Below, one piece after another: positions 2,755 through 7,139 of a stretch of DNA of 64,000 bases. Positions within the stretch are counted from its first letter, which is position 1. Each line of letters begins with the position of its first letter. The stretch is from Deltaproteobacteria bacterium (GTDB lineage Bacteria; Myxococcota_A; Polyangia; DRWM01; JAAZOP01). Below the pieces are notes generated by a model that saw nothing but the letters and a program-made list of their open reading frames with translations, searched no databases and was not told the origin of the DNA. Where the stretch lies: contig JACRCX010000099.1 in the NCBI GenBank assembly GCA_016218815.1, forward strand, positions 1-64,000, given 5' to 3'. A program made the translations under genes and the position numbers.

Positions 2755-2936
2755 GGAATCGGCTCCTGCTCAGCGCTGCCAAGGCGGAAATCGTCATCGG
2801 CCGGCGAAAATCGACGACGACAGTTGGCGAGATCGAGGCTCTAATTGAATGAGGAGATCGTGTGCGGCGAGCGAAACGGATTTTGTGGGGCTGACGAGCC
2901 GGAACGGGGCTCCGTGACGCGGGAGGGCAGGTGGGG

Positions 2937-3299
2937 ATGGGGCGCAATACCTTGAAATTGCACGGGTGGGCCGCCGCGGTCGTGGAGTTCGGGTCCGCAT
3001 CCGACACGACGTCGCGCGACCCTCTACCGTCATGGGCGCAGCGACTGACGCGGCGGCAGTGGGAGATTGCGGGCCTTGTGGGGGAGGGGCTGGACGACCA
3101 AGCCATCGCGGCGGTCCTCGGGTGCGGCTTCAAGACGGTCCGGAACCAACTCTCCCTGGTGTACCAGGTACTCGGCATCGATCACCGCACCCGCCTTGCG
3201 CTGATGGTTCAGGAGTGGCGGCTCCGCGGTGAGGATCCGGGCAGCACGGACCCGGGACAAAAGTCCCATCGACAACCCGCCGGGAGCGGGACACGATGA
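2937..3299 (+). CDS. Small LuxR/GerE-type helix-turn-helix protein
   Basis: About 120 residues. A GerE-like DNA-binding helix-turn-helix occupies residues 35-90: LTRRQWEIAGLVGEGL, DDQAIAAVLGC, KTVRNQLSLVYQVLGI. This is the usual pattern of a LuxR-family output domain. No receiver or sensor domain is present, so it is probably a stand-alone transcription factor or a partner of another protein. The basic tail may be disordered. An in-frame GTG six bases upstream is an alternative start. The leader and first codons (2892-2966) are duplicated in front of the ECF-sigma-like gene at 3506-3581, where the predicted first residues are again Met-Gly-Arg-Asn. The two genes therefore share a common 5' origin although their bodies are unrelated. 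Confidence 0.65.
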   Translation: MGRNTLKLHGWAAAVVEFGSASDTTSRDPLPSWAQRLTRRQWEIAGLVGEGLDDQAIAAVLGCGFKTVRNQLSLVYQVLGIDHRTRLALMVQEWRLRGEDPGSTDPGQKSHRQPAGSGTR

Positions 3300-3505: not shown

Positions 3506-3581
3506 CGATGGAGCCGAGCGACGGGGTGGCGACGCGAGAGGAGAGGTGGGAATGGGGCGCAACGTCTTGAAATCACACGGG
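3506..3581 (+). repeat. Duplicated leader and start region (partner at 2892-2966)
   Basis: The two segments align over about 75 bases, sharing GAGCCG, ACGGGG, GACGCG, AGGTGGG, ATGGGGCGCAA, CTTGAAAT and CACGGG in the same order. Each covers the probable ribosome-binding site and the first codons of the gene that follows. The right-hand copy runs directly into a G12 tract, whereas the left-hand copy has GGGTGGG there. Confidence 0.7.
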
Positions 3582-3590
3582 GGGGGGGGG
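3579..3590 (+). repeat. G12 homopolymer tract at gene start
   Basis: Twelve consecutive G residues lie nine codons after an ATG at 3552. With 12 Gs that ATG gives a peptide of about 57 residues ending at the TGA at 3723. With 13 or 10 Gs it joins the sigma-factor frame that begins at 3593. The tract could be a slippage switch or a sequencing/assembly error. Confidence 0.7.
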
Positions 3591-3598
3591 CGACTTCC

Positions 3599-4345
3599 GT
3601 GCTTGACACGGATCACGCGAACGCGTCGGGCGGCGACGGGGAGCGCCCTGCGAAGCCGCGGTCGTCGGACGACCCAGCGCTCCCAGGGACGCCGACCGAC
3701 TCGTCCGAGTCGTACCGATCGCTGACGCGCTTGGTGGCGAGCGTGTTCCGCAAGCTGCGTCCGGGCAGGAAGCTGCCTCCCGAGCTGCTTCATGATGTGG
3801 TGGTCAAGGCGATCCTGGGTCTGCACCGCTGGCGGCGCGATTGCGCCCTCTCGACGTGGGTTTTTCGCATCGCGGCGAACGAGCTTGCGCAGCGGGAGCG
3901 CGGCGACCGCGCCGCGGCAGGTGTCGCGGATCGGCTGGCGCGGGAGTCTTCGTCGCCGCCTCCGCTCACGCCGGAGCAGATCGCCACGGCGTCGGAACGG
4001 CGCTGTTCCATCGCCGGAACGCTGGCTCGGGTGTCCTTGCACCGCCGGACCTGCGTGCTGTGGATGGACGTCTGGCAGCGCAAGGCGGAGGACCTGGCCA
4101 GACACCTCGGGACGACGTCGGGTGCGGTGCGGGAGGCCGCGTCGGAAGCGCGGCAAGAGCTTGGCCCGCTGCTGAAGCGCCTGGACGACCCGCGGGCGCC
4201 GCCGGTCGGACCGCCGGTCCGCGGCCTTCGGTGCCCGGCCGAAACCTGTTCCGCGGCGACGGACGGGTGGCTTCGCTGTCCGTTGGTCCTGCCGGCCGAC
4301 GTGTCGGCGACGCTGCGAGGAGCCATGGGCGAAAAAAGATCCTGA
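3599..4345 (+). CDS. ECF-type sigma-70 factor-like protein
   Basis: The frame encodes a sigma-70 region 2 (ELLHDVVVKAILGLHRW, then STWVFRIAANELAQR) and a region 4-like C-terminal helix set (LARHLGTTSGAVREAASEARQEL). ECF sigma factors bind core RNA polymerase and redirect it to stress or envelope promoters. The GTG start given here is the first plausible one that needs no frameshift. The better start by homology with the neighbouring HTH gene is the ATG at 3552, which has a good purine-rich leader but is out of frame at the present length of the G12 tract. The frame also stays open upstream to 3467. No anti-sigma factor is obvious next door. The following secreted, membrane and lipoprotein genes run in the same direction and could be targets. 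Confidence 0.65.
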   Translation: MLDTDHANASGGDGERPAKPRSSDDPALPGTPTDSSESYRSLTRLVASVFRKLRPGRKLPPELLHDVVVKAILGLHRWRRDCALSTWVFRIAANELAQRERGDRAAAGVADRLARESSSPPPLTPEQIATASERRCSIAGTLARVSLHRRTCVLWMDVWQRKAEDLARHLGTTSGAVREAASEARQELGPLLKRLDDPRAPPVGPPVRGLRCPAETCSAATDGWLRCPLVLPADVSATLRGAMGEKRS

Positions 4346-4553
4346 CGAACGACGCGGTTGGTGCATCTAACAGGGTGGAGCACGTCGAGCGGGCACGATG
4401 CGGAACGGGGGGTGATCGGACGGCCATCTTGCCGACCGTGGGAGATCCCCCGACGTGCGACGATGGGTACGGTAGCGCGAGCTCGCGCCGCCCGCGATCG
4501 TGCGGATGTTCGCGAAGTCGTCCGAGGGCGACACGAAAGGAAGGGAATCAGGC

Positions 4554-5117
4554 ATGAAGACGAGAAGGATGATTGGGCTCCTGGCCGCCGCAACCGTGGC
4601 TTGCCTGGTCGTCGGGGTGGCGGGGACCGGCGGGAACGCTCGCGCGACGACCGACGCCAAGAGGTATCCGGCGTCAGCGTGCGTGGCCGTCTGGAACCAG
4701 CACGTGGACGAAGACATCGACTCGCAGTATGGTTACTCCGAGGAGGGCTTCCTGGAGAACTACAGCGCCGAGAACGCCGACGGCTCTGGCGGTGTCGATC
4801 TGAAGATCCAGTGTGCGGCCACACGCGAATGCACGAACACGGCGTCTGACGGCAACTGGTTCGGGATGCGCGACGACAACGACGCCAAGAACGGAAAGTG
4901 CCGCATGGAAGTCTGGACGCCGACCGGGAGCTACTACTGGGGGTCTTTCTACTCAACCAGCGGCGCCAGCACAACCCCGCAACGCGTCGACCTTGTCGCC
5001 CCGACCAATTCGCCGAGCTACAACTTCCAGTCCCTGTACTGCGAGCTGCCGCCGCAGGACTACAATCATTGGCGCAACGTTCTGACCGGGTACCAGATCA
5101 CGGACGACGGTTGCTAG
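4554..5117 (+). CDS. Small secreted protein, function unknown
   Basis: A 187-residue precursor with a clear signal peptide: a basic start (MKTRR), a hydrophobic core (IGLLAAATVACLVVGVAG) and a probable cleavage near ARA. The mature part is Tyr/Asn/Ser rich and has at least five cysteines, including YPASACVAVW near its start and a final Cys, suggesting disulfides. I do not recognise the family; the pattern recalls small exported proteins of myxobacterial genomes. ATG is preceded by GGAAGGGA at good spacing, which decides the start over an in-frame ATG 54 bases upstream. It is first of three same-strand genes encoding exported or membrane proteins after the sigma-like gene. Confidence 0.7.
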   Translation: MKTRRMIGLLAAATVACLVVGVAGTGGNARATTDAKRYPASACVAVWNQHVDEDIDSQYGYSEEGFLENYSAENADGSGGVDLKIQCAATRECTNTASDGNWFGMRDDNDAKNGKCRMEVWTPTGSYYWGSFYSTSGASTTPQRVDLVAPTNSPSYNFQSLYCELPPQDYNHWRNVLTGYQITDDGC

Positions 5118-5145
5118 CTCTGGCCGTGGCGCCGGTGGAGACAAG

Positions 5146-5928
5146 TTGAACAGCGGCCGACCCCAACGGGCGCTACTGGCCTTCGTCCTGGTGGGCAGTG
5201 GGGCGGTCCTTGCCCTACTCCTCGGCCGGGGCGCGGCCTCCTCGGATCGCACCGGACAGATGGCGGAAGCTGCCCCGGACGCCGGTTCGACAATGGACCA
5301 GGAACTCGCGCGACGCTTGAACACCCTGAGCACCCGCTTGGCCGTCCTCAGTGCCGCGCAATCGGACCTGGCCGCCCGCCACCAGGCGATCGAAGCCAAC
5401 GGCGCGCTCGCGACGGTCGCAACTACCCGCCCCACGCCGCCGAAGCAGCCCCCGGAGGACGAAGAGTATGCCGCCGCGGACGGTGGCTCTGCGGCTGACG
5501 GGTTCCCCACGGCCAAACTCTCGCCCGCGGAAGAACTCGCAGAAATTCACGCCTGCGAGTCCCGGCTCGTCGCGCGGCGCGAGGAACAGCTCGCCGAGGA
5601 GCCGTCCGACCCGCGATGGAGTTGGGGAATGGAGCGGGATATCGGTCAGTCGCTCGCTGCTCCGGCCATGGGGGCCCCGCGATTGAGCCACTTGCGGTGC
5701 GGTACCACGATGTGTGGCGTCAGCATGTCGTTCTCCGACGCAAACGCCGTTCAGCGGTTCAGCGAGGGGGCGCGGACCTCGGAACCCTGGACCTCCGTCG
5801 GCGAGTTGATGTTGCACCGGGACAGCTACGAAGACGTGGATGTCGAAGTGTACATCGCGAGGCAGGGCCACGCCTTCCGCCCAGCGTTTGATGTCCCGGG
5901 GGACCAACCCGCCGGACACGAACGGTGA
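5146..5928 (+). CDS. Membrane-anchored protein with conserved C-terminal domain, function unknown
   Basis: 260 residues. One N-terminal transmembrane segment (LLAFVLVGSGAVLALLLG) would leave the rest outside the cytoplasm. A helical heptad-like stretch follows (residues 45-85), then an acidic Pro-rich linker. The C-terminal 120 residues contain EPSDPRWSWGMERD and LRCGTTMCGVSMSF. This D-x-x-W plus C-x5-C pattern is common in uncharacterised deltaproteobacterial envelope proteins. The TTG start is chosen because GGAG lies just upstream and no ATG gives the membrane segment. The stop overlaps an ATG of the next frame, and the next gene's better start lies 24 bases further on, so the two are probably co-transcribed. 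Confidence 0.65.
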   Translation: MNSGRPQRALLAFVLVGSGAVLALLLGRGAASSDRTGQMAEAAPDAGSTMDQELARRLNTLSTRLAVLSAAQSDLAARHQAIEANGALATVATTRPTPPKQPPEDEEYAAADGGSAADGFPTAKLSPAEELAEIHACESRLVARREEQLAEEPSDPRWSWGMERDIGQSLAAPAMGAPRLSHLRCGTTMCGVSMSFSDANAVQRFSEGARTSEPWTSVGELMLHRDSYEDVDVEVYIARQGHAFRPAFDVPGDQPAGHER

Positions 5929-5951
5929 TGTGCGCCCGGAGGAGCTGCGCG

Positions 5952-7139
5952 ATGGATGAGAGACGACCACGGACCCGAAGATGGCTCGACGCCGCTGCCG
6001 CGCTGACGATCCTGGGAGGCGCCTGCGGAGGCGGCACGTCGCTCATTGGGGATGGCGGTGACGGGGAACCGTGGCGCCCGCCCATCGAGGACATCGGGGA
6101 GTCCGGATGGAGGGACAGCACGGAGCCGTGGGTGCCCCCTGCCCTGCCGGACTGCCGGTTCACACGCTTCTTCCCCCTCGATGTGTGGTGCGAGCCGGGT
6201 GGCGTGGTCGCCAGCTATGGCTGGGACGAATTCGAGGTCACACCCGAGGGCGGCGCGCGCGGCCTGGGCACCTACTTCTCGGTGGCGCACAACGACGGAA
6301 CGGGATGGGTGGAGTGGTTCCGCCCGACGTGCGGATCGGGAGGAAGCGGTGCGACGTGCGTCTACATGCTGGACGGGCGTCTCGCCGAGGGCATTCTTGG
6401 ACATGGCGTGGACGCCGTCGGGTTGATTACACCGGAAGGCGTCGCCAGCCGGTGGTCGGAGCTGGTGCCGATCGAGCAGTTCTGGGTCGTCAACGAGCAC
6501 CTCGCCTACGCGCTGTGGTCCGAACGGGTTGTTCGATTCGACGGAACAGGCTGGTCGCCACTGCCCGCCGAACCGCCATCGGGGTCGTACAAGCTCCTCT
6601 GGGGCGACGAGACCGAACTCTGGATTGCAGGCAACGACGGAGCGGTCGCCGAGTGGACCGGGGATTCCTGGAGGATTCACAGTGCGGGGACGATTGCGGA
6701 CTTCACTGCCATTTGGGGGATGGGGGACCGCCGCGTGTGGCTGGCATCAGGCGGAGCACTCCGCTTCCACGACCTCGACGACACCTGGAGCGAGGTCCCT
6801 TGGCCGGACGCCTCGGCCGACGCTCCCTGTCGGGGCGATGCCGGAATCCGTGGCTTCTGGGGCGCCGGCGAAGTGCTGTTCTTCCATACCGGCGACCAGG
6901 TGATCCGCTGGGACGGCGTGAACTTCGAGGTGCTCGGCTACTGGCCGGCCCGTCGCGAAGGGGGGAACTGCGTCGGAGGATTGGTCATCGCTGCCATGTG
7001 GGGCAATACGACCGACGAAGTGTTCTTCGCCGTAATGGACCGGAACACGTCGGTGACCCCGGAATGCCCTGGCGGATACGGGAGCCCCGGCAGACCTTTC
7101 GTCTTGTATTGGGACGGAACGACGTTCCACTGGATGTAG
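5952..7139 (+). CDS. Lipoprotein with beta-propeller-like WDG repeats
   Basis: 395 residues. A lipobox-like LGGAC after a hydrophobic segment suggests a lipoprotein. The body repeats short units such as VRFDGTGW, AVAEWTGDSW, IWGMGDRRVW, VIRWDGVNF and ends LYWDGTTFHWM, which suggests a propeller of about five to seven blades. It is a paralogue of the lipoprotein near 57.3-58.5 kb: both have the motif GWRDSTEPWVPP after the linker and the same C-terminal ending. A broken third relative lies near 56.7-56.95 kb on the other strand. ATG follows GGAGGAG, which decides the start over upstream GTG and ATG. Ligand unknown. Confidence 0.7.
   Translation: MDERRPRTRRWLDAAAALTILGGACGGGTSLIGDGGDGEPWRPPIEDIGESGWRDSTEPWVPPALPDCRFTRFFPLDVWCEPGGVVASYGWDEFEVTPEGGARGLGTYFSVAHNDGTGWVEWFRPTCGSGGSGATCVYMLDGRLAEGILGHGVDAVGLITPEGVASRWSELVPIEQFWVVNEHLAYALWSERVVRFDGTGWSPLPAEPPSGSYKLLWGDETELWIAGNDGAVAEWTGDSWRIHSAGTIADFTAIWGMGDRRVWLASGGALRFHDLDDTWSEVPWPDASADAPCRGDAGIRGFWGAGEVLFFHTGDQVIRWDGVNFEVLGYWPARREGGNCVGGLVIAAMWGNTTDEVFFAVMDRNTSVTPECPGGYGSPGRPFVLYWDGTTFHWM

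Follow-up and report, generated by a model that had tools for sequence, protein, structure and literature searches.

Phase variation by slippage is best known from host-adapted bacteria, where it mostly affects surface genes. Homopolymer tracts in promoters or 5′ untranslated regions also tune expression, as at porA and opc of Neisseria and fim of Bordetella. Contingency loci that switch by slippage in poly-G or poly-C tracts have been described in Campylobacter, Helicobacter, and Neisseria (PMC6321876, PMC2823697, PMC5084427). In addition, phase-variable regulators and phasevarions are known, including modH of Helicobacter pylori (PMC5700931) and the cmr signaling system of C. difficile (PMC6837544). 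We found no direct precedent for a phase-variable sigma factor in the open-access literature searched. Here, we analyze a long G tract at the 5′ end of a gene for an ECF-type sigma factor, together with its counterparts in related genomes.

The G tract, the duplicated leader, and the sigma frame

The window analyzed comprises the first 64 kb of contig C49, from a 7.3-Mb draft genome (161 contigs, approximately 83% complete), and it has a G+C content of 70%. It contains a single G or C run of at least 9 bases, the G12 tract, with six 7-mers and two 8-mers making up the remaining runs of at least 7 bases. Since run counts in the window drop approximately threefold or more with each extra base, only about 0.03 runs of at least 12 bases are expected; the G12 tract is a long homopolymer well above chance. 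The features around it are as follows.

2917 to 2971, forward strand: leader copy 1 (CACGGGTGGGCC), around the start of the LuxR gene, with no long G tract; 82% identical over 55 bp to 3531 to 3585
2937 to 3299, forward strand: small LuxR-type HTH gene from ATG 2937, 120 amino acids (aa), in frame with leader copy 1; Pfam GerE match, E = 8e-8
3531 to 3585, forward strand: leader copy 2, 5′ of the sigma gene; 82% identical over 55 bp to 2917 to 2971
3552 to 3725, forward strand: open reading frame that begins at ATG 3552 with the tract at G12, 57-aa product outside the sigma frame; Shine-Dalgarno (SD) energy −9.1
3579 to 3590, forward strand: G12 homopolymer tract; homologue with G15 on contig C71 of genome G001
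3599 to 4345, forward strand: ECF-type sigma gene from the in-frame GTG 3599, 248 aa; Sigma70_r2 match above the Pfam cut-off, SD energy −10.9
4555 to 5117, forward strand: predicted secreted protein, no Pfam match; by inspection, a similar protein at the same place behind the sigma gene on contig C15 of the same genome
5146 to 5928, forward strand: 260-aa protein whose N terminus has a hydrophobic segment; the C15 sigma cluster encodes a homologue (E = 3e-13)
5925 to 7139, forward strand: 404-aa protein without a Pfam match; the C15 sigma cluster again encodes a homologue

The initial annotation of this region had described a leader that recurs ahead of two regulators, with a G12 tract following nine codons in the second copy. 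Both the tract and the repeat are real: a whole-genome search aligned the two leader copies with an E value of 2e-8, at bounds slightly different from those first given, and ATG 3552 plus eight further codons lie ahead of the tract. ATG 3552 is homologous to ATG 2937, which has an SD energy of −10.8 and reads in frame into the LuxR gene from a leader copy without the tract. The GerE match bears out the LuxR-type HTH assignment of the first regulator. The ECF-sigma-like assignment of the second is upheld by a match to Sigma-70 region 2 (Pfam PF04542, 24.9 bits; cut-off, 24), with a weak region 4 match below the cut-off (PF08281, 13.9 bits; cut-off, 25.7) and a match to NCBIfam TIGR02937 that spans both regions and also falls below the cut-off (24.5 bits; cut-off, 42.9).

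The sigma frame is 250 aa long and at G12 lies in a different phase from ATG 3552. We computed that the frame of ATG 3552 meets the sigma frame with 10 or 13 Gs, as had been claimed, or in one tract phase in three, while at G12 it reaches a stop after 57 aa. We also found an in-frame sigma start, GTG 3599, that was absent from the initial annotation and lies 8 bases 3′ of the tract. Its SD energy is supplied by the tract and surpasses the threshold for the best 1% of random sites (−10.2), and that of ATG 3552 is inside the best 5% (−7.2). The tract sits between the start codon and the main frame if ATG 3552 is used but not if GTG 3599 is used. Thus, the proposal that the gene is in an off phase holds for the ATG 3552 frame; an OFF gene is not shown by sequence alone, because the tract provides the in-frame GTG 3599 with a strong Shine-Dalgarno sequence. 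We rejected a third candidate, in which the sigma frame would extend back across the tract to a start at GTG 3467, since the resulting peptide is Arg/Trp-rich and looks non-coding and the start is not common to homologues. Tract lengths that are multiples of three would suit this rejected start.

Related leaders and long G tracts in the genus

We searched five genomes of the order (the window's own genome, G001, G002, G003, and G004) with 141 bp of DNA around the tract and obtained three clear matches besides self: the LuxR leader in the window, contig C71 of G001, and contig C88 of the window's genome. The comparison with relatives that had been suggested as a check therefore recovered the tract in G001, while G002, G003, and G004 contained no recognizable leader copy in this search. 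G001 is a sibling species, a groundwater MAG labeled Deltaproteobacteria, in which ATGGAGTGCAACATGTTGAAATCACAC-G15 lies ahead of another ECF sigma gene that is not a close orthologue of the window sigma gene. Leader copy 2 and this leader are 90% identical over 39 bp, tract included, so the same leader retains the tract at another length (G15 versus G12). Among 290 genomes of the class, the exact 20-mer TTGAAATCACACGGGGGGGG was confined to the window and G001, and a 19-mer of it was found only in G001 in a set of 84,980 species, which may omit the window's own genome. ATG 3552 is conserved in G001 with its own SD sequence. In contrast, the post-tract GTG is replaced by ACG, and later starts have no ribosome-binding site, so the G001 sigma gene should start upstream of the tract.

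On contig C88, G12-CGAATTCTGTGCCTGATGCGGAT runs into a LuxR gene, and the 3′ flank is similar to that of the window tract, with an equivalent GTG 8 bases 3′ of the tract that also has an SD energy of −10.9. An upstream ATG on C88 was considered as a homologue of ATG 3552 and is probably not one, as its surroundings resemble the end of an EAL gene in G001. The 5′ tracts at these regulators are 12, 12, and 15 bases long, as read from one genome per species in draft assemblies, where tract lengths may err by one or two. All three lengths are multiples of three, an agreement with a 1-in-9 chance that differs from the prediction of free drift and so counts against a switch.

The window's genome contains 31 ECF matches and 26 internal tracts of at least 11 Gs, and five of its ECF genes lie within 200 bp of such a tract (one each on C15, C49, and C108 and two on C135). 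G001 and G003 each have one ECF gene within 200 bp of a run of at least 11 Gs, for a genus total of 7 compared to 0.16 expected (P = 2e-8 without the window). The ECF profile was partly built from tract-bearing genes, and all but the second C135 copy were also found with the window protein alone. The C135 pair consists of tandem duplicates, which are not independent, but counting them once leaves the conclusion unchanged; they are 90% identical, with G15 and G14 tracts, respectively, and identical bases directly 3′ of the tract. G runs at contig ends (L102, L105, L106, L107, and those on C62 and C106 of the window's genome) were excluded from the counts or handled cautiously. Such runs are up to 53 bases long and look like sequencing artefacts.

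The position of the tract differs among these sigma genes. It lies within the 3′ end of the gene in both C135 copies, on C15, and on contig C432 of G003, and it lies just past the stop codon on C108. A 3′ tract would change only the tail or the spacer and cannot switch the gene off, so the 3′ tracts of these sigma paralogues count against reading the tracts as switches.

Elsewhere in the genus, we found G tracts in other gene classes. On G003 contig C409 (L092), a G13 tract leaves the frame of an 823-aa secreted protein open, while on C421 of the same genome (L093), which is 82% identical, a G11 tract leads to a stop after 34 aa, and a frame of 847 aa follows. These two loci form the clearest on/off pair found. 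In the window's genome, a lipoprotein gene on C91 (L039) has a G13 tract just past the lipobox and a stop after 44 aa, followed by a 971-aa frame, and another on C80 (L042) has a G11 tract and is open. A G14 tract on G003 contig C542 (L094) is closed, and the 844-aa frame behind it starts with a signal-peptide-like stretch. In these last three loci, the tract falls right after the lipobox or ahead of the signal peptide. Judged by their sequences, these five loci are textbook contingency layouts, which makes a switch reading of the window locus reasonable.

Three genes follow the window sigma gene, and none of them has a Pfam anti-sigma domain. The homologues of the 260-aa and 404-aa proteins on C15 keep their order, and no homologue of the 260-aa protein was found in G001, G002, G003, or G004. 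Sigma genes precede predicted secreted proteins in the window (4555 to 7139), on C15 and C108, and on G001 C71, with RTX-repeat proteins behind the sigma gene on C108 and G001 C71. From position, the window sigma factor may control the genes behind it. Promoter-like stretches lie between the sigma gene and the next gene at L029, L030, L048, L089, and the window locus: TGTCAGGATTC...GGGACTAAYAGG on C15 and C108, GTGTCCCTAACGTMGATG on C135 and G001 C71, and GCATCTAACAGGG in the window near 4370. These stretches are candidate targets of these sigma factors. Contigs C88 (L038) and G001 C71 (L089) have genes in common up to an EAL-domain response regulator, after which C88 has a LuxR gene and a repeat-rich protein and G001 C71 has a sigma gene and an RTX-repeat protein. 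Because the LuxR gene and the sigma gene follow very similar EAL genes, regulator cassettes have apparently been swapped beside the tract.

A putative sigma switch and its alternatives

We lean toward reading the G12 tract as a slippage contingency locus that controls an ECF sigma factor and is one of a set in the genus. Under this reading, a genuine, length-labile tract would lie between ATG 3552, which has a good ribosome-binding site, and the body of the sigma gene. Slipped-strand changes would bring the ATG 3552 frame into the sigma frame (G10 and G13) or out of it (G11 and G12), and the sigma factor, and probably the secreted-protein genes behind it, would be switched stochastically. At G12, the sigma factor would be supplied by initiation at GTG 3599 only, which would act as a leak. 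For the window locus, we infer both the start codon in use and length variation among cells. Since the window LuxR gene has no tract and is in frame, only the sigma gene would switch; the two regulators do have one leader in common, as had been proposed, but a common control signal is doubtful. The poly-G loci of the genus would, as part of the same explanation, act on genes for large secreted proteins, lipoproteins, and small regulators. A broader proposal, which we put forward tentatively, is that a set of poly-G loci switches ECF sigma and small LuxR regulators in secreted-protein cassettes, such that entire secreted-protein programs vary stochastically, and that many of the tracts have a short flank motif in common, as though a dedicated element carried them.

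The conserved G15 tract in the sibling species, the clustering at ECF genes, and the frame-switch loci of the genus make simple assembly error unlikely and a contingency locus the best explanation. That part of the initial annotation is thus supported, while an OFF state at G12 is not established: the sigma factor may be made in any phase, since translation could begin at GTG 3599, an in-frame start for which the tract forms a strong Shine-Dalgarno.

The alternative that survives best, although we consider it rather unlikely, is that the tract lies in a 5′ untranslated region, with the sigma factor always made from GTG 3599, the G run acting as a Shine-Dalgarno or promoter-like element, and tract length tuning expression or doing nothing. 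The matching distance and SD energy of GTG 3599 and the C88 GTG fit this view, as do the N-termini predicted from these GTG starts, which are about as long as those of paralogues. We also found GAAAT within 15 nucleotides 5′ of 10 of 42 long tracts, approximately 7 of them independent because some are homologous, and of 0 of 225 control runs of 6 to 8 bases. Several GAAAT-flanked tracts are away from gene starts. This association hints at a shared regulatory element with a role as regulatory DNA, and it keeps an untranslated-region or promoter explanation alive. However, the sibling carries ACG in place of the GTG behind the same leader and tract, and ATG 3552 is conserved there together with its SD sequence, while its counterpart in the LuxR leader is in frame with the gene. 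We rejected a sigma-70 promoter that would use TTGAAA as the −35 element and the tract as the spacer, since nothing like a −10 element follows and the spacing is inconstant among tracts. We also set aside a strict motif, YAASTNNNKGAAATNA, for defining a regulon because it gave too few matches. Among other flanks, a GTAACTACGCGAAATGA-like motif lies directly 5′ of G11 to G16 tracts (L095, L097, L100, and L104 in G001; L034, L112, L040, and L113 in the window's genome), and at L034, L095, L097, and L100 it precedes paralogous lipoprotein genes on the opposite strand by approximately 130 bp. Several tracts adjoin a dispersed GTTGTTGGT-type sequence (L041, L043, L044, and L114 in the window's genome and L098 in G001).

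It is improbable that the tract arose through faulty sequencing or assembly, or that it is a neutral G run such as a genome with 70% G+C might contain. The assembly is fragmented into 161 contigs, very long contig-end G runs look like artefacts, and the exact G count may be wrong by one or two, but the flanks are conserved in a species that was assembled separately, tracts cluster strongly at ECF genes, and tracts share flank motifs that control runs do not. Least probable is that the tracts are recombination junctions at which regulator-plus-secreted-protein cassettes swap, for although C88 and G001 C71 carry different cassettes behind very similar EAL genes and some sigma genes have the tract on the 5′ side and others on the 3′ side, we identified no recombinase or site, and frame switching better explains tracts in the signal-peptide regions of large secreted proteins, where one paralogue is open and another closed.

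Relation to known systems

If the contingency reading is true, poly-G loci of this kind would occur in a new setting, a groundwater lineage in which the set is enriched at ECF sigma genes, and a sigma regulon could vary by chance, as in bet-hedging. Metagenomic reads already available from these sites would allow a direct test of switching.

Like porA, opc, and fim, the loci described here combine a homopolymer tract with an adjacent conserved motif 5′ of a gene, but no constant promoter spacing or −10 element is recognizable at these tracts. The 3′-end tracts resemble the C-terminal sequence switching reported for Helicobacter canadensis (PMC2823697). As in the Campylobacter, Helicobacter, and Neisseria loci, the G tract is near the 5′ end of the gene, one phase in three joins the main frame, tract length is labile among homologues, and the genome-wide set includes surface and secreted proteins. 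In contrast to those systems, this set belongs to an uncultured, high-G+C groundwater lineage, and it has a strong association with ECF sigma genes. As with modH and cmr, one switched regulator would switch a set of genes; however, modH-type phasevarions depend on DNA methyltransferases, and cmr encodes signaling proteins that are switched by a different route, whereas the regulator at the window locus would be a sigma factor.
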